From the NCBI RefSeq assembly GCF_028728065.1, contig NZ_CP117812.1, forward strand, positions 2,170,001 to 2,234,000: DNA of 64,000 nucleotides, written 5' to 3'. Below the pieces are notes generated by a model, which was given only the letters and a program-made list of their open reading frames with translations, ran no database searches and had not been told where the DNA came from. Origin of the DNA: Lentisphaera profundi (GTDB lineage Bacteria > Verrucomicrobiota > Lentisphaeria > Lentisphaerales > Lentisphaeraceae). Below are positions 16,827 to 57,824 of this stretch, in pieces. Each line of letters starts with the position of its first letter. Position 1 is the stretch's first letter. A program made the translations under genes and the position numbers.

Positions 16827-18127
16827 GCATAAGTGACGAAAAGAAACTCGACAAAGATAACACGGCTTTTTTAGTTGGCGTTTATAAAAAAAATGACGAA
16901 AAAGAAGAATGCGATCAACTCTTAGAAGAACTAGAAGAACTCATGGACACCATGGGCGTAGAGGTCGCCGGTAAAAAGGCGATTCGAAACCAAAAACCTA
17001 GCGCCCGTTTTCTGCTAACTTCAGGCAAAGCTGAAGAGCTTTTTCACAATGCCATGGAAGCTCAGGCAGGCATCCTCGTTTTCGATGCCGATATTAGCCC
17101 ATCACAGCAAAGAAATATGGAACGCGAATCTGGGCTAACAGTTATTGATCGACGTGAAGTCATTTTAGAAATTTTCTCACAACGTGCCACAACCCGCGAA
17201 GCAAGACTACAAATTGATCTCGCTCGCTCAGAATACGACCTCCCAAGACTCGCCCGTGCATGGAATCACCTTTCTCGCCAGCGTGGTGGAGCCAACATGA
17301 AAGGCGAAGGCGAACGCCAATTCGAGCTCGACCGGCGCATGGTTAGATCTCGTATAAGCCAGTTACAAAAAGAGCTAGAGAAAGTCCGCTCTCAACGTGC
17401 AACTCAACGTAAACAACGTCGAAAAAAACCCGTGCCAAACGCGGCTATTGTCGGCTACACAAATGCAGGTAAATCCTCTCTACTCAATTGCCTAACTGAT
17501 GCAGATATATTGGCGGATGACAAGCTATTTGCGACATTGGATCCTACGACCCGGAGAATCACACTCAGCAACAATCAAGACTTACTTTTAACCGACACCG
17601 TAGGCTTTATCCGCAAACTTCCACATGACTTAGTCGAAGCCTTCAAAGCCACTCTAGAAGAAACCGTAGTAGCCGATTTCCTGATACATGTTGTAGACGC
17701 CTCAGACCCCGATGCCCTCCAACAAATGGAGACAACGTTTAAAGTTTTGAACGAATTAGAGGCCGGCACCAAAAAAACCATCATTGCTTTTAATAAAATC
17801 GACCAAGTTGAGCACACTGCGACACTCGCCTCCTTGCGAAGCGCTTATCCAGACTGTATTTTTATGTCAGTGAAATCAGGCCAGGGAATCGAACAACTTC
17901 AAGAACGTATGTGCGAGCTTATAGAACACACTCTTTTTGATGTAGAACTCCACATCCCTTTTGACCGCTTCGACCTCATGGCCTTAATTCATCGCCAGTG
18001 CCACATTCACGTAGAGAAATATGAAGATGACTTTATCTACGTTAATTGTTCCGCACCAACTGACATGAAAAATGAAATTAAGGATTATATTATCAATGAC
18101 ACCCTCCCGAACACGAACAGCTGTTGA
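16823..18127 (+). CDS. hflX: GTPase HflX
   Basis: Ribosome-associated GTPase that splits stalled or stress-hibernating 70S ribosomes. The 434-residue protein has the N-terminal HflX domain with GKAEEL and the region RIRLARSEYDLPRL-like (here QIDLARSEYDLPRLARAWNHLSRQRGG), a coiled segment, then the G domain: G1 GYTNAGKS at 211-218, G3 DTVG and G4 NKID. All nucleotide-binding motifs are intact. It is in the tol operon by a 4-base ATGA overlap, and the kinase gene that follows overlaps its 3' end. Confidence 0.95.
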   Translation: MSISDEKKLDKDNTAFLVGVYKKNDEKEECDQLLEELEELMDTMGVEVAGKKAIRNQKPSARFLLTSGKAEELFHNAMEAQAGILVFDADISPSQQRNMERESGLTVIDRREVILEIFSQRATTREARLQIDLARSEYDLPRLARAWNHLSRQRGGANMKGEGERQFELDRRMVRSRISQLQKELEKVRSQRATQRKQRRKKPVPNAAIVGYTNAGKSSLLNCLTDADILADDKLFATLDPTTRRITLSNNQDLLLTDTVGFIRKLPHDLVEAFKATLEETVVADFLIHVVDASDPDALQQMETTFKVLNELEAGTKKTIIAFNKIDQVEHTATLASLRSAYPDCIFMSVKSGQGIEQLQERMCELIEHTLFDVELHIPFDRFDLMALIHRQCHIHVEKYEDDFIYVNCSAPTDMKNEIKDYIINDTLPNTNSC

Positions 18128-19769
18128 TATTCTAAAAGACGTCCAACCCGACGTCAATAATCGTTATCAAGTAAAGTCAGACCTTGGCAAAGGTGGAATG
18201 GGGACCGTCGATGCGGTAAAAGATACACAACTCGATCGTATACTTGCCATGAAAACCCTTTCCCCTAAACACGCAAAAAGCCCTTCAACAGTCGAATCAT
18301 TCTTAAAAGAAGCCCGTTTCACCGCACAACTTCAGCACCCAAACATCATCCCCGTTCATGATGTAGGCACCTCGCCAGATACGAATGCACCCTTTTATAC
18401 AATGAAGTTAATTGAAGGTGAATCGCTGCTCGAAGTCATCATTAAGCTCAAAGACCAAGACCCCATATATGAAAAAAAATATAGCTTATTTGAACGCTTA
18501 AACCTATTCCGAAAAGTCTGTGATGCGCTCGCTTATTCACACTCACGCGGAATCATTCACCGCGACATTAAACCCGCCAATATTATGTTAGGTCCCTATG
18601 GTGAAGTCCTGCTCGTGGACTGGGGCTTAGCTAAGCACATTGATGATGATGAAAAGATCAATGCCCTAAGCACAACCGGCTTCGAAGACTCTTTTTTAAC
18701 TCATGACGGCATCATTAAAGGTAGCTTGGCCTACCTTTCCCCCGAGCAAGCATTCGGGAATATCAGAGAAATCGACCGTTTAACAGACATCTTTTTACTT
18801 GGCGCTACATTATATCACTTACTCACCTTAGAAGCTCCCTATAATTACACCGAAGTCGCTAAGCTCCTTAACCATGCCGAAAATGCAAAATATCTCCACC
18901 CTTTAGAACAACCTGGCTGCGACAACCTCCCCTTGCAAGTAACTGATATCATTACTCAGGCCATGTCAAGAAACAAAGATGACCGCTTCCAATCGGTTGA
19001 AGAAATATCCAAAGCTATTGACTACTACTTAAGTGGCAAGCACGCCAGTAGCATGAGGATTTTTAAAAGAGGCGAAATGCTGATCCACAAAGACAGCAGT
19101 GGTACCGAAGCCTACGTAGTCACATCTGGACGAGTGGAAATTTATCATGATGACAACGACAAACGCAATGTCCTCGATATCTGTGAACGAGGCTCTATTA
19201 TTGGTGAACTATCGCTCCTCACTGGCAAAAAACGCTCCGCAAACGCTATCGCAATGGAAAAAACCTCTGTACTTATCATAACGCGACAAATGATGCTTGA
19301 TGAATTAAATAAAATGCCCCCTTGGCTGGAGAAGACTCTCTCATCACTAGCTTTTAAATTACTCAACACCAATAGCGATATCCACCCATTCATTAGCGCC
19401 AGTTGCGCCCTTCCCGTCACGATTCAGACTTACTACATCTTCATGGAAATGCGCTTTCAAGTCATCTCCGAGAGCGGCGAAATCCCCGGCTACACTCGTG
19501 AACAACTATCAAAATTAATCGCGGACAACTTAGGCCTCCCACCCGAAAGAACCGAAGGCGCGATTAATACACTTGTTCAAAAACAAGTATTAGAAGTTGA
19601 CTCACTGGGCATAATCACTCCTATTGACTTAAGCGAACTCAAAGCACTGATTAAATTCATTGAAATGGAAAACTCCAGAATGAAAGACACCAGTACCATC
19701 GGCCAGGACATCCCGGTTTCTAAAATCCGGAAATTCACAGAGACCTATAGAGCACTAAATAGTATCTAG
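18096..19769 (+). CDS. Ser/Thr protein kinase with cyclic-nucleotide-binding domain
   Basis: 557-residue cytoplasmic kinase. Kinase domain about 24-310: glycine loop GKGGMG 31-36, ATP lysine K53, catalytic HRD 155-157, DWG 175-177 (in place of DFG) and SPEQ 215-218. A Crp-type cNMP-binding fold follows (about 320-405: GEMLIHKDSSGTEAYVV, RGSIIGELSLLTGKKRSANA). The last 130 residues are helical, with a stretch (GYTREQLSKLIADNLGLPPERTEGAINTLVQKQVLEV) resembling the winged helix of Crp/Fnr regulators. There is no membrane helix. I chose the ATG at 18096, which has AAGGA upstream; an earlier ATG at 18072 is possible. Either way the gene overlaps hflX by over 30 bases. Confidence 0.88.
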   Translation: MTPSRTRTAVDILKDVQPDVNNRYQVKSDLGKGGMGTVDAVKDTQLDRILAMKTLSPKHAKSPSTVESFLKEARFTAQLQHPNIIPVHDVGTSPDTNAPFYTMKLIEGESLLEVIIKLKDQDPIYEKKYSLFERLNLFRKVCDALAYSHSRGIIHRDIKPANIMLGPYGEVLLVDWGLAKHIDDDEKINALSTTGFEDSFLTHDGIIKGSLAYLSPEQAFGNIREIDRLTDIFLLGATLYHLLTLEAPYNYTEVAKLLNHAENAKYLHPLEQPGCDNLPLQVTDIITQAMSRNKDDRFQSVEEISKAIDYYLSGKHASSMRIFKRGEMLIHKDSSGTEAYVVTSGRVEIYHDDNDKRNVLDICERGSIIGELSLLTGKKRSANAIAMEKTSVLIITRQMMLDELNKMPPWLEKTLSSLAFKLLNTNSDIHPFISASCALPVTIQTYYIFMEMRFQVISESGEIPGYTREQLSKLIADNLGLPPERTEGAINTLVQKQVLEVDSLGIITPIDLSELKALIKFIEMENSRMKDTSTIGQDIPVSKIRKFTETYRALNSI

Positions 19770-28546: not shown

Positions 28547-29770
28547 ATGACTACAGAAAAATTCTATGAACAACTATTGGGTGTGAGATTGCCTTGGAAA
28601 ATTAAAACAGTTGACTTGTCAATCATAGATGAAAGAGTCGATGTTTATGTAGAATTCCAAGGTAAAGCACAATGTCCTAAATGCGACAAAGAAGCTAGTA
28701 TCCATGATTATGCAAGTAGTCGTTCATGGAGGCACTTAGATAGTTGTCACATGAAAACATTTCTTCATTGCCGCCTTCCTAGAACAAAATGCGATAGATG
28801 TAAAGTGAAAACTTTGGCTCCGAGTTGGTCAGTTGCAAGCAGCAGATTCACCTTAATGTTTGAATCCTTTGTGATTAAAGTTTTGCTTGCAACAAAGTGC
28901 GATACCCAAACCGCAAAAATCCTGAAATTGACTCAGAAAGAAGTCTTGAGGATTAAAAATAATGCCGTGGATCGTGGCCTGAAGCGTAGGGGAGAGTTAG
29001 AGGCTCCTGAAGTCCTCGCGATTGATGAAAAATCTTACGGTCAAGGTCAAAAATACATAACGGTACTTGTCGATCATGACAATGATAAAGTTGTAGAGTT
29101 AAGGCCAGATAGAACCGAAAAAGAAGTGGCCAAGTTATTACAGTCCTATACAGAAGCTGAACGCCAAAAAGTAGAGTCGATCACTATGGATATGTGGAGT
29201 GCATTTAAGACAACATCAGAAAAATATTTAGAAAATGCTCTAATAATTCATGATCGTTATCATATTGCTTCTCATATGGGAAAAGCATTAGAAACAACTC
29301 GGAGGGTTGAACAGAATTCACTAAAGGAAGATGAGAAAAAGAGTTTAAAAGGAATGCGCTTTTGTTTGCTAAGATCTATTGATAATAGAACGGAAAAAGA
29401 CTTCACTAAGTTAGTTGGCTTTGAGTCGGGAAACTTGGATACCGCAAGAGTTTTTATGATGAAGGAGATGCTACGTGAACTTTATGAATCTCCCCTAACT
29501 GCCATGGAGGCACAAATATATTTCACCTCATGGATTGCTTTGGCTCGGGAGCAATCTATTGCGGGATTAACTCGTGTAGCTAAAACTATTGAAAACCATT
29601 TAGAGGGGATTTGCAATTATTTCCACAAGCGCTTGACCAACGCCATCGCCGAAACTAAAAACGGCTTTATTCAAGAATTAAAAACACGTGCCAGAGGCTT
29701 TATGAATTGGCGTAGATATCGTATTAATATCCTATTTCATTTTGGGAAACTCGATCTTGACCCACAATAA
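28547..29770 (+). CDS. ISL3-family transposase
   Basis: 407-residue DDE transposase. An N-terminal zinc-finger-like region has CPKCDKE (about 43-49) and CDRCKVK (about 84), typical of zf-ISL3. The catalytic domain shows the first Asp in VLAIDEKSYGQGQKYITVLVDHD, a second in SITMDMWSAFKT followed by HDRYHIASHM, and the Glu region toward the C-terminus. The frame is full length without stops, so the element may be active. Confidence 0.95.
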   Translation: MTTEKFYEQLLGVRLPWKIKTVDLSIIDERVDVYVEFQGKAQCPKCDKEASIHDYASSRSWRHLDSCHMKTFLHCRLPRTKCDRCKVKTLAPSWSVASSRFTLMFESFVIKVLLATKCDTQTAKILKLTQKEVLRIKNNAVDRGLKRRGELEAPEVLAIDEKSYGQGQKYITVLVDHDNDKVVELRPDRTEKEVAKLLQSYTEAERQKVESITMDMWSAFKTTSEKYLENALIIHDRYHIASHMGKALETTRRVEQNSLKEDEKKSLKGMRFCLLRSIDNRTEKDFTKLVGFESGNLDTARVFMMKEMLRELYESPLTAMEAQIYFTSWIALAREQSIAGLTRVAKTIENHLEGICNYFHKRLTNAIAETKNGFIQELKTRARGFMNWRRYRINILFHFGKLDLDPQ

Positions 29771-43163: not shown

Positions 43164-44528
43164 ATGAAAATAGCTTTTGACATAGCAAAATTCCTCACGA
43201 CTAAGGCATTAAAATTCCTGCTTATTGTCGTACTCATCCTTGCCTCAATACATCTAAAAAATGAAATCACCAAATGGTATAAACAACGTGATCTTCATCA
43301 ATTTGAAATGGAAACATTACGAGTAAAGATCGCTTCCTACGAAGAAGAAAAACTAAGTCTACTTAAGTCTATGAAGCTCGGCAAGAAGAAAATGCAGGAA
43401 CAATTCACCCTACAAAAAAAACTGCACCTTGCCATTAAGCGCCACAATGATGATCCTCCCTTATTTTTCCTACTCGACGAAAGAGCACAATGGGAAGCCG
43501 AGCTCAAATTACTGGAAGCCTCCCTAGCAAGTTCCGAAGCCCTGCAAAAGCAACTTTTTAAGCTTTCGCGCGAAGCTCGAAAAACCCAAGCCACACTGAA
43601 GAGTACCACTTTAAATCAAAGCCTGAAACTGCAACAAATGACAGAAAAGTGGCATCAGTATAATTGGTTTGAAAAACATGTCAAAACAATTACCGGCACC
43701 ATCTTATCAATCGCACTTTTACTACTGCTCGCACCTTTCCTCAATCGTTTATTTTGGTACTTCCTTCCTGGTGCATGGGTGGAAAACCAAGCTCCCTTCC
43801 AGTTAAACCCCAAAGGTGAATCGAATGAAATAACTTTTTGGAGTGACTCTAACAAACAGATCAAAATCCACTTAGAGCCCGATGAAACTATTTCGGTAAA
43901 GCAAGATTGCTACAATAGCTTTGATGAACACCTAGCGCGCAAAAATCGTTTTTTGTGGGATCGCTCAGCATGGATCATTTCATATTCTGCCGAAATGATT
44001 AATATGACTGATTTTCATAATCCCGATACATCTCCACGACAAATCACCCTCATTGCTCCTCAAGCAGAAGATGAACTTTGCAAAATCACCTTAAAGGATT
44101 GCCAAGGATTAATCCTAAAACCCAGCCAAATCATTGCCACCAAAGGCAACATAAAGCTCAGGACTAAATGGAACTTTTTCAGTATCCATAATTGGTTACG
44201 ACTCGTCTTTAGACATATTATTTTTTCAGGCACAGGAGAAATCTTTCTTTATCTTCATGGAGGAGGCAATGAAATCAGCGCTGATAGCCTGAGAATCAAA
44301 GAAGATAAACTAGTGGCTTATCAAAGTTCATGCCCCGTTGGTCTTGTTCGCAATGAAAACCTTTGGCATTACCTCTTAGGCAAATGTAACCTCTTTGACT
44401 ATCGCTTTAATTCGGATAAATTTATCCTTATGCAAAATCAATCGTCGCCACTTCACACACATAAAACTCCCGGCGAACGATTTTTTGACACTATTTTAAA
44501 TACTATCGGTAAATTTCTCGGATTTTAA
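43164..44528 (+). CDS. Membrane coiled-coil protein of unknown function, upstream of an atypical kinase
   Basis: 454 residues: a membrane helix (about 13-30), a charged coiled coil (about 38-155), a second helix (about 178-200), then a beta-rich domain (about 215-454). Within it, RHIIFSGTGEIFLYLHGGGNEI resembles the core of AIM24/DUF124 proteins, but I would not rely on that. Its stop codon lies 3 bases before the kinase gene at 44532, so the two should be co-expressed and may act together at the membrane. No function can be assigned. Confidence 0.6.
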   Translation: MKIAFDIAKFLTTKALKFLLIVVLILASIHLKNEITKWYKQRDLHQFEMETLRVKIASYEEEKLSLLKSMKLGKKKMQEQFTLQKKLHLAIKRHNDDPPLFFLLDERAQWEAELKLLEASLASSEALQKQLFKLSREARKTQATLKSTTLNQSLKLQQMTEKWHQYNWFEKHVKTITGTILSIALLLLLAPFLNRLFWYFLPGAWVENQAPFQLNPKGESNEITFWSDSNKQIKIHLEPDETISVKQDCYNSFDEHLARKNRFLWDRSAWIISYSAEMINMTDFHNPDTSPRQITLIAPQAEDELCKITLKDCQGLILKPSQIIATKGNIKLRTKWNFFSIHNWLRLVFRHIIFSGTGEIFLYLHGGGNEISADSLRIKEDKLVAYQSSCPVGLVRNENLWHYLLGKCNLFDYRFNSDKFILMQNQSSPLHTHKTPGERFFDTILNTIGKFLGF

Positions 44529-44531
44529 TAA

Positions 44532-46697
44532 ATGGCTAATGACGACCTAGACCTACAAGCGGGTTTCGAAAAAACTTCGGAATTAATGGCCAATTTCTAT
44601 CACGAAGAGAAAAAAAATCCGCCTTCGAGAATTCAAGAACTCAACATCCCTCTTTCCCCTATTCCTGATGGCAAGTTCGAAACAAAACAGCAAATCGATA
44701 CAGGGGGAATGAAAGACATCTTTGAAGTTGTCGATAGGGATACAACTCGTCACCTGGCCATGGCTATCCCAAAAAGTAATAATAAAGAAGATTGGAATGA
44801 TTTTATTTTCGAAGCTCGCATTACGGCTTTACTAGAACATCCCAATATTGTTCCCGTACACGACATAGGCCTTTATGAAAACCAACCCTGCTTCACCATG
44901 AAACTCATCAATGGGGATACACTGACCCAAATCATCAAACGTTTTAGCCAAAACAATAAGCAAGTTCCCTCTACTCTCCATGACTTAATTAATATCTTTC
45001 TCAAAGTGTGTGATGCTATTGCTTACTCTCACTCAAAAGATGTCTTGCACCTAGATTTGAAACCCGATAATATCCGTATCTCAGATTATGGTGAAGTGCA
45101 AGTTTTAGATTGGGGCTTAGCTCAATTCTACAAAACGAGCGATTTCCATACTCATTCACATACACAAGAATTGAGTATCATTCACCAGACAGACACCAGA
45201 GCCCTTGAAGGCATTATTCTTGGCAGCCCTGCTTATATGTCTCCAGAACAAGCATGTGCGGACAACGCAAGCCCTCGTAGCGATATCTACTCGCTAGGCG
45301 CCATCCTTTATTCCATCATTACTTTTCAACCTCCTTTCATTGACGATGATTACCGCAAGGTTTTACAAAAAACCATGAAAGGAGAATTCCCTAAGCCAAG
45401 TGAACTCAAACTAAATTGGTCTGTCGACCCTGGCTTGGAAGCCATTTGCTTAAAGTCCATGGCTATCAAAAGTCGTGACCGCTATAAATCCGTCCTTGAT
45501 CTAGCCGCCGATTTACGAAAATGGAATAGTGGCTATGCGCCTCTAGCTCTAAACGCTCCACCGCTTCATTTGACTAAATTATTCTTAAAGCGCAACCAAT
45601 TCCTGCTCAGCTTATGCCTGAGCTTCCTTATCATTATCTTGGCCTTTACCGCGCTGTCCTATAACAACTTAAGTAATAGTGAAGAAATAGCTCAAAGCAA
45701 TGCTCAAAAGGCTTCCGAAGCCTTAGAAGATTTAGAACTCACACAAAAAACTAGTCGTGATAATTTCCGCAAGCTCATGAACAGTAGAGTGAAAGTCCAA
45801 CAAACTATTGATAAACTTCACGAAGTCTCAGAAGAAAAAGTTACCATTGCCCAAATTGCAGCAGACCAATTTATTGAAGATGCCCTAAGCTCTCTACGTC
45901 TTGGGGCTTTCAATAAAGCTAAAACTTACGCCGTACAGGCTCAATCTTTGGCCCCAGACTATCTTTCAGTCATTGCTTTATTCGCAAAAATCAACCTGCT
46001 CGAGCTCAATATAAACGAAGCCAATAAATACCTCCTCCAAGTCAACACCACTAAATACCTATCTTTTGATCACAGTAAAATACGCAAAGGAAATAACGAA
46101 GAAATCATCCGTTTAATCAAAACACTTCAAAAAGACAAATCCTTAAGCGGATTACAGAATGTCGCTTTTCTCAGTCTTAAAAAAATCAACTTATCGACTA
46201 AAAGTAAAATCAACATCTTCAAAAAAACTCTTCTGGGTAAAAACGATATTCTGACAAGTACTAGTCTGATAACAGCTCAAAGTAATTTTCCCCTCTTCAC
46301 TTTATCGATATTACCCATTGAAAAACTGATCTGTAAAACACACATCAAGTCACTCAATAAACAGGTGCAATCTTTGAAGAATATATCTTATTTAGAGCTA
46401 AATGGACAAGTTAATGTCCCCTTTCGTCAGCTTACACTCATCAACAATATTAAAACTATTCGACTCGTAAACTGCCAAGTAAATTCTTTCATTTGGTCCA
46501 GTAAGAAGGATCGCGAGTCTCTAGAACATCTCATTCTAATTGACACCCCGCTAGCAGACTACTCACCACTAGTCAAAATTAGTAGCTTAAAGAAACTCAC
46601 TGTTTCTAAACCGACTAACCTGAAAAAAAATTCAGTTTCTGTAATTTTATTAAAGGAACACGGAATCAAACTGGACTTTATCCAAACTCCGAATTGA
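44532..46697 (+). CDS. Membrane Ser/Thr kinase homologue lacking the beta-3 lysine (WNK-like layout)
   Basis: 721 residues: kinase domain (about 50-335), membrane helix (about 357-375), coiled coil (380-445), TPR-like helices and C-terminal leucine-rich strands, the same architecture as the kinase at 55650. The nucleotide site is changed: the glycine loop reads DTGGMK (56-61), with Lys61 where the third glycine should be; the beta-3 lysine is Ala78 (LAMAI); HRD is HLD (173-175). D175, K177, N180 and the DWG aspartate (193) are kept. Lysine in the glycine loop with none in beta 3 is the layout of eukaryotic WNK kinases. It could be active in that way or a pseudokinase. Its 3' end overlaps the facing sigma gene by 20 bases. 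Confidence 0.87.
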   Translation: MANDDLDLQAGFEKTSELMANFYHEEKKNPPSRIQELNIPLSPIPDGKFETKQQIDTGGMKDIFEVVDRDTTRHLAMAIPKSNNKEDWNDFIFEARITALLEHPNIVPVHDIGLYENQPCFTMKLINGDTLTQIIKRFSQNNKQVPSTLHDLINIFLKVCDAIAYSHSKDVLHLDLKPDNIRISDYGEVQVLDWGLAQFYKTSDFHTHSHTQELSIIHQTDTRALEGIILGSPAYMSPEQACADNASPRSDIYSLGAILYSIITFQPPFIDDDYRKVLQKTMKGEFPKPSELKLNWSVDPGLEAICLKSMAIKSRDRYKSVLDLAADLRKWNSGYAPLALNAPPLHLTKLFLKRNQFLLSLCLSFLIIILAFTALSYNNLSNSEEIAQSNAQKASEALEDLELTQKTSRDNFRKLMNSRVKVQQTIDKLHEVSEEKVTIAQIAADQFIEDALSSLRLGAFNKAKTYAVQAQSLAPDYLSVIALFAKINLLELNINEANKYLLQVNTTKYLSFDHSKIRKGNNEEIIRLIKTLQKDKSLSGLQNVAFLSLKKINLSTKSKINIFKKTLLGKNDILTSTSLITAQSNFPLFTLSILPIEKLICKTHIKSLNKQVQSLKNISYLELNGQVNVPFRQLTLINNIKTIRLVNCQVNSFIWSSKKDRESLEHLILIDTPLADYSPLVKISSLKKLTVSKPTNLKKNSVSVILLKEHGIKLDFIQTPN

Positions 46698-47265
46698 GAT
46701 AAGCTATCTCTTCTTGCAAACGATCTTGCACACGTTTTTTATAAACATAAATCGAACTTTCACTCACTCCTATCTCCGCCGAAATCTGTTCAACTCCAAC
46801 ACCCTCGATGCTGAGTAAAAATGCGCGACAAACTCCCTCACTGAAGTGTTTTTTGACTTTTTCCCAAGCTAAATTTGAGATATAGGTTTTCCACTCTTTT
46901 TCAGCAATGGCTTCAATTTCTGGCGCACTAACTGATTTATCGAGTTCCGCACTTGAATCAGGGAGCTTACTAAGGGAAAGATTTTTACCACGCAAAAAGT
47001 CACGTACTTGATTTGCTGTCACGGTATATAACCAATTACGAAATTTACCTCGATAATTATCATAACTAAAATCAGGAAGCTTTTTCCATAATTTAATCAG
47101 TACTAACTGAACTATCTCAAGGGCGTCATGGTGATTGAGTTCCATACGTCGAACTACATTGTAGATATACTGCCTGTAGGTTGCAACGAACTCTTCCCAG
47201 GACTTTTCGTCATACTGATCCTTAAGACGAATCAGCATTGTCTTTCTAGTATTCCATTTATCCAT
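46678..47265 (-). CDS. ECF-type RNA polymerase sigma factor
   Basis: 195 residues starting MDKWNTRKTMLIRLKDQYDEKSWEEF, with sigma region 2 (VRRMELNHHDALEIVQLVLIKLWKKLPDF, FRNWLYTVTANQVRDFLRG) and region 4 (AFLLSIEGVGVEQISAEIGVSESSIYVYKKRVQDRL). The opening W-x-T-R-x-x-x-x-x-R-L-K-D is typical of planctomycete-type ECF factors linked to kinases. The start at 47265 is preferred to an upstream TTG. It faces the kinase at 44532 and overlaps its end. The desaturase terminator lies directly before its start, so its promoter must be close or inside that region. Confidence 0.87.
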   Translation of the reverse strand: MDKWNTRKTMLIRLKDQYDEKSWEEFVATYRQYIYNVVRRMELNHHDALEIVQLVLIKLWKKLPDFSYDNYRGKFRNWLYTVTANQVRDFLRGKNLSLSKLPDSSAELDKSVSAPEIEAIAEKEWKTYISNLAWEKVKKHFSEGVCRAFLLSIEGVGVEQISAEIGVSESSIYVYKKRVQDRLQEEIAYLNSEFG

Positions 47266-47273
47266 AAACAAAA

Positions 47274-48813: not shown

Positions 48814-49125
48814 ATGTTAGAATATTTTAAAGATCGTAAGTTAAAACTACATCCCGAACCCGTGAACCTCCGCAAAGGCTTCAATGGCTTAACCGCGTTA
48901 AGTAATCTGGAAAATCTCTTTGCAGGAGATGTCTACCTTTTCATAAATCGACGGCGTAATTTATTGAAAGGTCTCTACTGGGATGAAGGTGGTTTTTGTA
49001 TTTTCAATAAACAGTTGGAGCGCGGAACTTTTAGCGACATGTCCGAAGCTAAAACTGAGCTTAGTTTTCGGGAATTTCTGCTAATGATCCACTGCTGTAA
49101 AGGGGCCTATTTTAAGATCAAATAG
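48814..49125 (+). CDS. tnpB: IS66 Orf2 protein TnpB
   Basis: 103-residue accessory protein of IS66 elements. It has the family core PVNLRKGFNGLTAL, DVYLFINRRRNLLKGLYWDEGGFCIFNKQLERGTF. Its exact role is unknown, but it is needed for transposition in characterised IS66 members. It precedes tnpC by 31 bases. Confidence 0.92.
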   Translation: MLEYFKDRKLKLHPEPVNLRKGFNGLTALSNLENLFAGDVYLFINRRRNLLKGLYWDEGGFCIFNKQLERGTFSDMSEAKTELSFREFLLMIHCCKGAYFKIK

Positions 49126-49156
49126 CCTGGTTTTATAGCTGAAAAATCATGGGGTT

Positions 49157-50644
49157 ATGCTATATTATTTCATGACTAAAACTATCTCAGACCTCACCAA
49201 AAAAGTTGTGTTTTTAGAAGAGGAAAACACCTATCTAAAAGCCCAGCTGTATGGTCGTAAAAAAGAGACTGTAGTCTTTGATAACTCAGATACTTTTCCT
49301 GAGTGGACTGAATACCTTAAGGATCTGGGCGATTCAAATTCACCAGAAAGAGATGAAGAACCCAAAGTAAATACCCTAAAAAAGAAGAAGAAACGCAAGC
49401 CCTTTACGCATTTCAATTTCCCTGAGAATGCTGAACGCGAAATTAAAATCATTGATTTGCCCGAAGATGAAAAAGTTGATCCCATAACTGGTGTAGAACT
49501 GAAACTCATGGGATTCGATACATCAGAAAAACTTGTTTATGTTCATGGTCGTTACAAAGTCATAGAGACTCGTGTACGTAAATACAATATTCCAAATAAG
49601 CCCAAGGCAGGAGTTATCTCCGCTCTAGTTCCCAGCCATCCGATAACAGGCTGTCGTGCTGATGTGAGCTTGTTGTCACATATACTCATTTCAAAATATG
49701 CCGACCATTTACCTCTTTATCGTATCGAAGAGCAATTCAAACGAGATGGACTTACTATTGCGCGACAAACGCTTTCCAACTGGGTTCTCCAGTTAGGAAA
49801 AACTCTCCAACCTTTAGGTGATTTATTACGAGATCAAATTTTAAACTCATCAAGAGTTTTTACAGATGACAGCCCTGTTAAGCTTCAAACAAAAGGTAAA
49901 GGTAAGCTTCAAGAAGGTCGGATTTGGGTTTATGTCGGCGGCGATGGTCCAGACCCTCCTCTCGTTTGGTTCGAATTCACCAAAGACCGTTCACACTCCC
50001 ATACATTAGATCGAATGAAAGACTTTCAAGGAGTTTTTCATGCCGATGCTTTTGCTGCGTATGAAAAAATGGATAAGCTTGATGGTATCGATTGGCAGGC
50101 TTGCTGGGCTCATGCCAGGCGTAAGTTTTTTGACACACCCAATCCAAACGAATTCTGTAAACAAGTGCTTATTTTGATGGATAAGCTCTTTGAACTCGAA
50201 CAGGATGCTTGGGCGCTTGGTACTTCGGCAAAGCGACAGAGCTTTCGCAATAGGAAAACAAAGCCTTTTGTTGAAGCTCTATTAAAGACGATTCAAGATC
50301 ATTACTACAAAGCATGTGAGCCCAAAGGCAAACTCAAAACGGCAATGGAGTACCTACTTAAACGGCAAGAAGCATTTAAAGCTTTTCTTGCTTATCCGGA
50401 TGCTCGCATAGATAACAATGTGAGTGAACGCGCTATTCGTCCGCTTACTATTGGTAGAAAAAACTGGCTTTTCTTCGGCAGTGAAAAAGGCGGCCAAGCG
50501 GCTGCCAATATCATCTCCTTAATCCAGACTTGTCGTAAGCTGGGTATCAATCCAAAAGAATACTTAGAGGATGTGCTCAGGAGAATCATTGATCACCCAA
50601 AAGAAAATTTAATGGAACTCCTACCACAAAACTGGAAGAAATAG
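49157..50644 (+). CDS. tnpC: IS66 transposase TnpC
   Basis: 495-residue DDE transposase. N-terminal leucine-zipper-like helix (VFLEEENTYLKAQLYGRKKE), an IS66 central domain (HPITGCRADVSLLSHILISKYADHLPLYRIEEQF, TLSNWVLQLG), first Asp in VFTDDSPVKL, second in VFHADAFAAYE, and Glu in DNNVSERAIRPLTIGRKNWLFFGSEKGGQAAA. Complete, with no internal stop. The start may be here or at an ATG 15 bases later. Confidence 0.95.
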   Translation: MLYYFMTKTISDLTKKVVFLEEENTYLKAQLYGRKKETVVFDNSDTFPEWTEYLKDLGDSNSPERDEEPKVNTLKKKKKRKPFTHFNFPENAEREIKIIDLPEDEKVDPITGVELKLMGFDTSEKLVYVHGRYKVIETRVRKYNIPNKPKAGVISALVPSHPITGCRADVSLLSHILISKYADHLPLYRIEEQFKRDGLTIARQTLSNWVLQLGKTLQPLGDLLRDQILNSSRVFTDDSPVKLQTKGKGKLQEGRIWVYVGGDGPDPPLVWFEFTKDRSHSHTLDRMKDFQGVFHADAFAAYEKMDKLDGIDWQACWAHARRKFFDTPNPNEFCKQVLILMDKLFELEQDAWALGTSAKRQSFRNRKTKPFVEALLKTIQDHYYKACEPKGKLKTAMEYLLKRQEAFKAFLAYPDARIDNNVSERAIRPLTIGRKNWLFFGSEKGGQAAANIISLIQTCRKLGINPKEYLEDVLRRIIDHPKENLMELLPQNWKK

Positions 50645-54850: not shown

Positions 54851-55573
54851 CTATTTTTGTAAAAGAGTAATTAAAAAATGTAATTCTTCCTGCACCTCTG
54901 CCGGATCATTCAGTGTATCTGCGACCAACTTTCGTAAAACCTTTGAAAAATCCCGACGCAAGCGGTGTACCGCTACTGTAAAGGCATTTTCACTCACCCC
55001 TAAAATATCTGCTCCCTCTTTTAAACTCGCCTCACTATCGCCATTTAAATAGGGCTTCATAACTCCCCAACGCTCCGAATCTCCACGCGTGATAAAACGT
55101 TCTTCTAATTCGGCCATTGCATTTTCAAGTAAAGTTAATGCCCAAGCACGCTGATAAGCCTCATCTGGTCCCAATTCACTAAAATCCTGTAGTGAATACT
55201 CCGCCGCTTCATAATCAACCTTAATCTGGTCTCCACCTCGTTTCTGAGCCTGCCCACGCTGCCATTCATTCTGCATAAATCTCTTAAATAAAGTGAGTAA
55301 AAAATTCCTAAAACGTCCCTTCTCTGCATCCGCACGCTGCAATACATCACGTTCAAGTAAATAAGCAAAAAAACCCTGACTCAAATCTTGTGCATCTTCC
55401 GCACTACTACCTGAACGCCTGGCAAAAGCATAGAGTGGATGCCAATATCGACGGCAGAATTCGGCGAGCTCGCTACTCTCACCTGCACTTGCTTTTAAAA
55501 TCAAACTCCAGCTAGTAGGATTGAAACCACGACCCGCTGCATTTATATTTTCTTGATATTTTGTATCTGACAT
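54851..55573 (-). CDS. ECF-type RNA polymerase sigma factor, divergent from a kinase
   Basis: 240-residue sigma factor of the group found with Ser/Thr kinases in planctomycetes and relatives. Region 2: FCRRYWHPLYAFARRSGSSAEDAQDLSQGFFAYLLERDVL, GRFRNFLLTLFKRFMQNEWQR. Region 4: EGADILGVSENAFTVAVHRLRRDFSKVL. It is longer than typical ECF factors because of a spacer between regions (about 110-165). It heads an operon with three exported proteins and is divergent from the kinase at 55650, 76 bases away, a usual arrangement for a kinase-controlled sigma factor. Confidence 0.92.
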   Translation of the reverse strand: MSDTKYQENINAAGRGFNPTSWSLILKASAGESSELAEFCRRYWHPLYAFARRSGSSAEDAQDLSQGFFAYLLERDVLQRADAEKGRFRNFLLTLFKRFMQNEWQRGQAQKRGGDQIKVDYEAAEYSLQDFSELGPDEAYQRAWALTLLENAMAELEERFITRGDSERWGVMKPYLNGDSEASLKEGADILGVSENAFTVAVHRLRRDFSKVLRKLVADTLNDPAEVQEELHFLITLLQK

Positions 55574-55649: not shown

Positions 55650-57824
55650 ATGAATAGACCCCCAAATTCAAATTCCGACAAGTCCGCTGACTTGTTGAAA
55701 ATGGCTTTACTAGATGAAGAAGAACAGGACCGATACTTAATCTGTGACTCGATCGCTTCCGGGGGCATGGGCATGATCTACCGAGCGTACGATAGCCACA
55801 CCGAAAGGTATGTCGCTTATAAAGTTATCCATCCCGAGCTCCAAAAGAACAAAGCCATCTTTGAACGATTTACCTATGAGTCAGAAGTCGCTGCACGCCT
55901 CGAACACCCCAATATCATGCCTGTTTATGATGCCGGCTACGATCTTGATGGTCGACCATTTTATACGATGAAACTACTTAAAGGGCAAACTTTAGCCAGC
56001 TTAATCCATAAGCTCAAAGAAAATCAAAGCTCTTCTAGTTTCGAAAACATGCTAGAAATTCTCATAAAAGTCTGTGATGCTATTTCTTGTGCCCATGAAC
56101 AAGAGATCATTCATCGTGACCTCAAACCCGACAATATCATGATTGGTAATTTTGGCGAAGTTCTCGTTCTTGATTGGGGACTCGCAAAAATCCCACAAAG
56201 AAAAGAACTTGCCATAGATAGCTTAGCCCCCTCAGTACCTACTGAATTCAGCCAAATGGGTGCCGTCATTGGCACCCCCGCATATATGGCGCCTGAGCAG
56301 GCCAAAGGTCAAGAAGTCGACGCTCGCGCAGACATCTATTCTCTAGGCGCACTCCTACAAACTATGCTAACCTTTGACCCTCCCATCCAGGGAGATAATA
56401 CTGAAGAAATTCTATCTCGAGTTTCAACAGGCAAAATCACAAGACCCCACGCCAATGATTTACTCCCTTCTAGCTTAGGAGAAAAAAACCAACGCATCCC
56501 CCGCTCCGCCCTCGCAGTTATAAAAAAATCTACACAATTAGATCCTGACAATCGTTATCACTCGGTTGCGGACCTTGCCCAAGAACTTAAAAAAATCCTT
56601 GGCGGATTCGCAGTAAAAGCAGAAAATGCCGGCGTGATTCGCCTCTCATTACTACTTATGCAAAGACATAAAATAGTTGCCATCGTTACGTCCATTTTTA
56701 CGGTCTTATTTATTACTTTCGGCGTGAAATCTATCAACGCCATTCATCAGGAAAGGGATTTTGCTCAAGAACAACACGAGATTGCTAAATTCAACTACTC
56801 CGAAGCCCAAAATGCTCTGAATCAACTGAAAAAAAGTGCGGCAATTTACTTATCTCGTGCACGCTACAATATTAGTCGTGGTGATTTTGATTCTGCACTC
56901 ATGGATGTAGAAACTTATCTAAAACTCAACCAGCACAACTCAGAAGCTTATCTTCTTTTAGGCCGTATTAATCAAGCTCAGAAAAATTTTGCGAAAGCCG
57001 CGAAAGCCTTTAAACAAGCTCAAAAATATGGCGATAAAAGTGCTCATGCTTCTAATAGTCTGAAAATTGCTTCGAGCGCCCAAACATGTGTGGAAGCTCA
57101 CGGGCATCTCGCTGAAAATGAAATTTTTTCTATTTACTGTCAGTTAATTTCTAATGCTCAAATCCCGGAAGCTTCTGCTTTCCTTGATGATCTACTCAGC
57201 AACGAAGAGTTTTCTAACCGAGTCTTTAGTGAACTTTTTACTCATACCAAACTACAGGGCAGCTTAAAATTCTGTCCCAAAGGCTTGCTTCATATGCGTC
57301 TAGATACAGAAAATATTGACTTCACGCCATTACGCTTTTTCAAAAAAGCCATTTTTGGGACTTTAGCCCTGCCCGATACACTACTCACATCCCTCAAACC
57401 AATTGAAGGCTTGGCCATTGTCTCTTTAGATATCCGAGGCACGCAAGTATCTTCCCTTGTACCCTTACACAACTCGACGATTTACAATCTTTTTATCGAC
57501 GACACCCTCATCGAGGATCTCTCTCCTTTGAAAGGCCACAAGCTCAACATCCTCTCCATTCGCAACATCCCCATTGAGTCATTAGAATCCCTGCAGCACA
57601 TTGACATTGCTCATCTAGACATAGCTAACAGCCCTCTGAAAACACCAGACTTGAAATACATCAAACATATCCCTTCTCTAGTCATGCCCATATCTTGGCG
57701 CGCATCTGTACTAGAAAACACCTTCCCAAATAATACAAAAATCATCTGGGCACAAAAATCGCAAAACTCAGATATGGAACGCGATAGATTTAAAATTAAG
57801 CAAAGTATATTTTCTCACTTATAA
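55650..57824 (+). CDS. Membrane Ser/Thr protein kinase with TPR and leucine-rich segments
   Basis: 724 residues. Kinase domain (about 30-320) with glycine loop ASGGMG (36-41), ATP lysine K58, HRD 155-157, KPDN and DWG (175-177), so it should be active. Membrane helix at about 341-360, then a coiled coil, TPR-like helices (about 395-470; DVETYLKLNQHNSEAYLLLGRINQA) and short leucine-rich strands (about 545-700; FIDDTLIEDLSPLKGHKLNILSIRNIPIESL). AAGGA precedes the ATG. It is probably the sensor for the divergent sigma factor. It is a paralogue of the kinase at 44532. Confidence 0.93.
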   Translation: MNRPPNSNSDKSADLLKMALLDEEEQDRYLICDSIASGGMGMIYRAYDSHTERYVAYKVIHPELQKNKAIFERFTYESEVAARLEHPNIMPVYDAGYDLDGRPFYTMKLLKGQTLASLIHKLKENQSSSSFENMLEILIKVCDAISCAHEQEIIHRDLKPDNIMIGNFGEVLVLDWGLAKIPQRKELAIDSLAPSVPTEFSQMGAVIGTPAYMAPEQAKGQEVDARADIYSLGALLQTMLTFDPPIQGDNTEEILSRVSTGKITRPHANDLLPSSLGEKNQRIPRSALAVIKKSTQLDPDNRYHSVADLAQELKKILGGFAVKAENAGVIRLSLLLMQRHKIVAIVTSIFTVLFITFGVKSINAIHQERDFAQEQHEIAKFNYSEAQNALNQLKKSAAIYLSRARYNISRGDFDSALMDVETYLKLNQHNSEAYLLLGRINQAQKNFAKAAKAFKQAQKYGDKSAHASNSLKIASSAQTCVEAHGHLAENEIFSIYCQLISNAQIPEASAFLDDLLSNEEFSNRVFSELFTHTKLQGSLKFCPKGLLHMRLDTENIDFTPLRFFKKAIFGTLALPDTLLTSLKPIEGLAIVSLDIRGTQVSSLVPLHNSTIYNLFIDDTLIEDLSPLKGHKLNILSIRNIPIESLESLQHIDIAHLDIANSPLKTPDLKYIKHIPSLVMPISWRASVLENTFPNNTKIIWAQKSQNSDMERDRFKIKQSIFSHL

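Follow-up and report, generated by a model that had tools for sequence, protein, structure and literature searches.

Genes and residues at the locus

The window, a stretch of 64,000 nucleotides from the genome of Lentisphaera profundi, encodes a Ser/Thr kinase of 721 residues, preceded by the gene of a membrane protein and followed by a convergent gene for an ECF sigma factor (Table 1). The membrane protein, whose type the initial annotation had left open, has an AIM24-type domain. It also adjoins the kinase orthologues of two congeners, with 64-65% identity, and is a probable co-transcribed accessory of the kinase. Both congeners keep the succession of AIM24-type membrane protein, kinase, sigma factor, and desaturase; in them, the kinase orthologues are 76-77% identical to the window protein and the sigma factor is 90-94% identical. 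Identity between the kinase orthologues reaches 88-95% in the kinase domain and 64-72% in the C-terminal part, which is the pattern expected for a conserved output combined with a diverging sensor. No dN/dS ratio is given for these orthologues because their synonymous sites are saturated.

Table 1. Coordinates of the genes and sequence features in the window
Feature	Coordinates	Strand	Remarks
Membrane protein with AIM24-type domain	43164..44528	+	AIM24 8e-10; ends 3 bp upstream of the kinase
Lys/Ala (WNK-like) membrane-anchored Ser/Thr kinase	44532..46697	+	721 aa; Pfam Pkinase 1.5e-32
Glycine loop D56-T-G-G-M-K61 (DTGGMK, residues 56-61)	44697..44714	+	Lys61 codon at 44712-44714; codons read
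Ala78 codon, replacing the β3 catalytic lysine	44763..44765	+	Codon read; PknB alignment
Glu94, helix αC	44811..44813	+	200/200 members; helix in AlphaFold2 model
Catalytic loop HLDLKPDN, residues 173-180	45048..45071	+	HRD Arg replaced by Leu
DWG metal-binding motif, residues 193-195	45108..45116	+	Asp in 196/197 members with a residue there
Predicted transmembrane helix directly after the kinase domain	45600..45656	+	Kyte-Doolittle 2.75
C-terminal region, presumably an envelope-side sensor	45657..46694	+	Without Pfam match; faster evolution than in the kinase domain
Partner ECF sigma factor, convergent	46678..47271	-	Sigma70_r2 2.8e-13; 3' ends overlap the kinase by 20 bp
ECF gene next to the canonical sibling, diverging from that kinase	54851-55573	-	Near the kinase at 55650..57824
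Canonical Gly/Lys, HRD sibling kinase (L043)	55650..57824	+	Comparison; same membrane-receptor layout

In the alignment with PknB, for which a solved structure is available, Lys61 occupies the third-glycine position of the glycine loop (a Ser in PknB), and Ala78 that of the β3 (VAIK) lysine, which is therefore missing from this protein. These two residues correspond to positions 55 and 72 of PKA. Both assignments had been proposed in the initial annotation and are borne out by the open reading frame, the codons, and the PknB alignment, and the retention of D175, K177, N180, and the DWG aspartate, together with the replacement of HRD by HLD, is likewise seen in the sequence. The description of the loop as a change of the third glycine holds for Lys61, but it is incomplete, because the first glycine has also gone (Asp56). 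The protein thus shows the WNK-type arrangement, with K61 at position 55, no Lys at position 72, and the αC residue E94 kept. At the same time, it falls under the formal definition of a pseudokinase (at least one of the VAIK Lys, HRD Asp, and DFG Asp lost) through the absence of the VAIK lysine, with both Asp residues kept. The missing VAIK lysine is apparently compensated by Lys61, and Glu94 is the expected salt-bridge partner of this residue.

Predicted structure and kinship

An AlphaFold2 model of the kinase, run on an alignment of 81 sequences and without ATP (pLDDT of 89, pTM of 0.89), shows Lys61 opening β2, Ala78 inside β3, and Glu94 in αC; a Lys61-Glu94-phosphate geometry is putative. 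The protein kinase fold is present, as is the corresponding domain, and the closest solved fold among the matches listed is PknB, with a Z score of 31.9 and 1.7 Å over 252 residues (28% identity by Foldseek and 32% over the VIA alignment). PknB, PknA, and StkP lead among the sequence and fold matches listed, and WNK entries are absent from the top rows of these matches. Because the closest relatives among these matches are of the PknB type, the similarity to WNK kinases is read as convergence, and a kinship with the WNK family finds no support among the matches listed.

The likeness to PknB-type kinases extends to the layout of the protein (kinase, one transmembrane helix, and envelope-side region) and to an APE-like motif (SPEQ), in addition to sequence and fold. 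The differences reside in the Ala at β3, the Lys at the third glycine, and the HLD and DWG motifs; in addition, none of ten proteins scanned has a PASTA domain. A hydrophobic segment lies about 24 residues past the kinase domain in 165/165 testable family members. The C-terminal parts of the relatives vary, and include TPR, leucine-rich repeats, and an F5/8 type C domain, none of which was recognised in the window kinase. The paralogue L034 (869-3085), which carries the Lys/Ala pair, ends in such an F5/8 type C (galactose-binding-like) domain, a sequence feature that gives a hint of carbohydrate sensing.

The displacement of this charge is already known from WNK kinases and, as an Arg, from a CAK subfamily. 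In WNK, Lys233 sits at position 55 and replaces Lys72, and a survey from 2007 described WNKs as the one functional ePK family that lacks Lys72; in the CAK-chloro subfamily, the positive charge has shifted from 72 to 55 outside WNK, in the form of Met72 and Arg55 (PMC1821047). The Lys/Ala family shares with WNK kinases the move of the Lys from 72 to 55 and the retention of the αC Glu. It differs from them in having Ala rather than Cys at β3, in the loss of the HRD Arg, and in the DWG motif, and also because its members are bacterial, membrane-anchored, and sigma-paired, WNK not being the closest among the matches listed. The same charge shift is shared with CAK-chloro, but the latter has lost the αC Glu and belongs to the choline/aminoglycoside-kinase family, not to the protein kinases.

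Family members in the genome of L. profundi

The genome of L. profundi (two contigs, 5.46 Mb) yielded 96 matches to the 721-residue kinase, nearly all of which were aligned. At positions 61 and 78, 55 of these kinases have Lys/Ala, while 30 show the canonical combination of Gly, Ala, or Ser with Lys. The window kinase had originally been presented as an exception to the two canonical kinases encoded nearby, a contrast that is real within the window but does not extend to the genome, where Lys/Ala is the majority state. Two additional kinases carry Lys/Val. One of them (L076, 905-2809) is a degenerate relative, with HNTLDTTN as its catalytic loop and a GWK motif, and its sequence indicates that it is likely a true pseudokinase and a natural contrast to the rest of the family.

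The coupling between both positions is perfect, as mixed states (both lysines, or neither) are absent among the aligned kinases of this genome. An apparent Gly/Val combination in L080 arises from the misalignment of a canonical AMK motif. The initial annotation had indicated that a Lys61 not conserved among homologues without the β3 lysine would speak against its proposal; with the misaligned L080 set aside, Lys61 is found in 57/57 such kinases of this genome (55 with Ala and two with Val at position 78). The two classes are best told apart by columns 61 and 78, and in third place by the Arg of HRD, which becomes Leu, and Lys61 is the sole Lys/Arg that is invariant in the Lys/Ala class and absent from the canonical one.

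Two other kinases of this genome deserve mention. L065 is a Lys/Ala kinase split across two overlapping reading frames, and by its sequence it is probably a frameshifted copy. The third kinase of the window (18072-19769) is canonical, with Gly/Lys, and its C-terminal half appears by eye to be cyclic-nucleotide-binding-like.

Distribution, conservation, and origin of the Lys/Ala pair

Four DNA patterns of equal spacing were compared over one set of 288 genomes of the phylum. The Lys/Ala pattern was found in 71/288 genomes, with 45 matches in the genome of L. profundi and 41 in one congener, and the Gly/Lys pattern in 161/288, while the Lys/Lys pattern appeared in 0/288. The Gly/Ala pattern gave 16 single matches versus 8 for the reversed control, and 0/10 of those inspected were kinases, so that these matches are near the reversed-pattern background. 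One Lys/Ala match, that of genome G069, looks spurious, because it corresponds by eye to a P-loop-like protein. A longer Lys/Ala pattern, run on 84,980 species genomes, retrieved at least 120 loci, and the fact that all of those listed are kinases indicates that the motif is not due to chance. The titled matches among those listed belong to Lentisphaerota, Kiritimatiellota, Verrucomicrobiota, and Planctomycetota. Because Lys and Ala formed part of the selection of these loci (at least 120), the evidence that they provide is limited to residues outside the pattern.

A total of 200 family members were collected. Lys61 is present in 200/200, part of the set having been selected on this residue, and Glu94 is invariant (200/200). 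The positions of the catalytic loop, which lie outside the selection, show D in 199 members, K in 198, N in 198, and the Leu of HLD in 192. H173, D175, K177, N180, and D193 are kept in at least 98% of the members with a residue there, and Gly195 almost throughout. Position 78 is Ala in all but two members, which have Val, and loop position 56 is variable (A, G, D, N, or S). The near-invariance of Lys61, the αC Glu, and the catalytic residues in 200 members argues against decay.

Trees built with the trait columns removed group the Lys/Ala kinases in one clade or nearly so, and need 1 to 3 changes. The coupling therefore amounts for the most part to a single rearrangement that has persisted over deep divergence, and not to many replays of it. 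The median end branch measures 0.65 changes per column, and Lys/Ala is fixed across at least four PVC lineages. Several independent origins, or a reversal, were also considered, and they are unproven since no more than 1 to 3 changes are required. The trees place the canonical window kinase L043 close to the Lys/Ala clade or, with modest support, within it; if it is nested there, it would represent a double reversal.

Linkage to ECF sigma factors and other partners

An ECF gene of one single family is located at 500 bp or less from the kinase gene in 100/117 pattern loci among the matches listed. In the genome of L. profundi, the same is true for 41/55 Lys/Ala kinases versus 3/30 canonical ones (Fisher p = 1e-8), figures that represent a lower bound because the flanks were short at some loci, and in other genomes an ECF gene at this distance was found for 0/29 canonical kinases. 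The ECF gene is mostly encoded directly upstream on the same strand, and it is convergent in the window. Across 38 pairs of the L. profundi genome, the distances between kinases and those between sigma factors are correlated (r = 0.76; 0/2000 permutations as high), which indicates that kinase and sigma factor multiply and diverge as a unit. This linkage and co-divergence lend support to the early proposal of a separate signalling system that includes an ECF sigma factor.

The arrangement is that of the ECF43 modules PknT-EcfP and PknS-EcfK, in which the ECF gene adjoins a gene for a membrane Ser/Thr kinase, and the kinases PknT and PknS activate the neighbouring sigma factors by phosphorylation (PMC8999054; PMC13147305). 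A phosphorylatable Thr (QTTA/STTA) takes the place of the acidic σ2.2 motif in ECF43 (PMC8999054; PMC13147305). In contrast, the sigma family linked to the Lys/Ala kinases keeps this motif, with a consensus D-a-e-D and with D-A-L-E in the window, in place of such a Thr, so ECF43-type activation was rejected. The mechanism in which phosphorylation supplies a missing charge does not carry over, and phosphorylation, if it is the signal, must act at another site. One of these sources also states that groups ECF59, ECF61, ECF62, and ECF217, with planctomycete models, are predicted to be kinase-regulated, ECF62 and ECF217 having Rhodopirellula models (PMC8999054), and a Lys/Ala kinase-ECF pair occurs in R. 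sallentina (L116). A relocated-lysine arrangement of the kinase goes unmentioned for these ECF-kinase systems in the parts accessible of both sources (PMC8999054; PMC13147305). The sigma linkage could also reflect binding rather than phosphorylation, or the sigma factor could have the kinase gene among its targets.

In four gut-type Lentisphaeria (loci L283, L284, L285, and L288; genomes G009, G012, G033, and G074), a Lys/Ala kinase is encoded directly downstream of tig-clpP-clpX. This is the sole Lys/Ala kinase found by the pattern in those four genomes, and it consists of the kinase domain and a C-terminal membrane anchor, with no sensor region. Its placement suggests a link to ClpXP proteolysis, and this context implies that the Lys/Ala family has partners besides the sigma factor.

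Proposed function and alternative explanations

According to these data, we favour, with a probability of roughly 0.6, that the protein is a membrane-anchored PknB-like receptor kinase with a relocated lysine, likely active, which controls the neighbouring ECF sigma factor. In this large PVC family, the lysine that binds the phosphates of ATP would have moved from β3, where an Ala is now found, to the third-glycine position, and Lys61 would pair with the αC Glu in the way that Lys233 does in WNK kinases. ATP would be used through this residue, and the kinase would most likely be active. The C-terminal region, on the envelope side, would sense a signal that the single transmembrane helix would relay to the cytoplasmic kinase. 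The kinase would in turn control the adjacent ECF sigma factor, most likely by phosphorylating it, and a dedicated regulon would be switched on through this sigma factor. A broader reading, to which we lean with somewhat less assurance, is that of an independent, bacterial WNK-like move of the lysine, dominant in this lineage (about 55 paralogues) and associated one-to-one with ECF sigma factors, which would constitute an active layer of signalling counted as dead by VAIK-based surveys.

Some bacterial pseudokinases act as scaffolds (PMC12599244), and the Lys/Ala proteins might similarly bind ATP while being catalytically silent, in which case Lys61 would keep a nucleotide-dependent switch, and the domain would hold and release the sigma factor like an anti-sigma factor. 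This explanation, which is unlikely though it deserves consideration, is consistent with the loss of the HRD Arg in most members, and neither the sigma linkage nor the co-divergence needs phosphorylation. Nevertheless, silent kinases usually lose one of the proton-acceptor Asp, the catalytic Lys, the Asn, or the metal-binding Asp, and all four are near-invariant in 200 divergent members; moreover, L076, which did lose its catalytic residues, reveals the appearance of decay in this family. The family as a whole is unlikely to consist of pseudokinases. The pair could also have been merely inherited after a neutral founder event, in which an ancestor lost the β3 lysine and happened to have a Lys in the loop, given that 1 to 3 changes in the trees reduce the perfect association to few independent events. 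We regard this as improbable, because both residues are fixed over very diverged members and at least four PVC lineages, while position 56 varies.

The possibility that these proteins are active enzymes of another chemistry, such as AMP transfer, was raised by the rearranged pockets of SelO and SidJ, which changed their chemistry (PMC12599244). This seems very improbable for the Lys/Ala family, since it retains the metal-binding Asp, the catalytic Asp, and the activation segment in the form seen in phosphotransfer kinases. Finally, the swap of residues is the same as in WNK1, which would fit a relative of the eukaryotic WNK kinases acquired by horizontal transfer and endowed with a sensitivity to chloride or crowding. 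At their chloride site, WNKs carry DLG where the Lys/Ala family has DWG, and the binding of chloride inhibits their autophosphorylation. Such a transfer is hardly credible considering that PknB, StkP, and PknA are the best sequence and fold matches among those listed, and that the family shows Ala and not Cys at β3, HLD and not HRD, and DWG.

With respect to previous work, a study of the PVC kinome from 2024 made the canonical Lys a requirement for counting a kinase as functional (PMC11032199), a filter that would discard the Lys/Ala family. A review from 2025 names other bacterial pseudokinase families without mention of these phyla (PMC12599244). No report of the Lys/Ala family was found in the open-access literature, and an earlier one may exist outside it. 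If the kinases are active as favoured above, a large part of the kinome of Lentisphaera and its relatives is concealed by the canonical-Lys filter, and the family would represent a second, bacterial solution to set beside WNK, with hundreds of natural sequences. The family makes it testable which changes accompany the move of the lysine (Ala at β3, HRD to HLD, and DWG), and its numerous kinase-sigma pairs could serve for studies of specificity.

Possible mobile elements in the window

Near the kinase-sigma locus, at 48814-50644, two genes resemble by eye an IS66-type transposase module. They have no match at the loci of the two congeners, and therefore are probably a recent insertion. Another gene of the window (28547-29770) appears by eye to encode an ISL3-type transposase.
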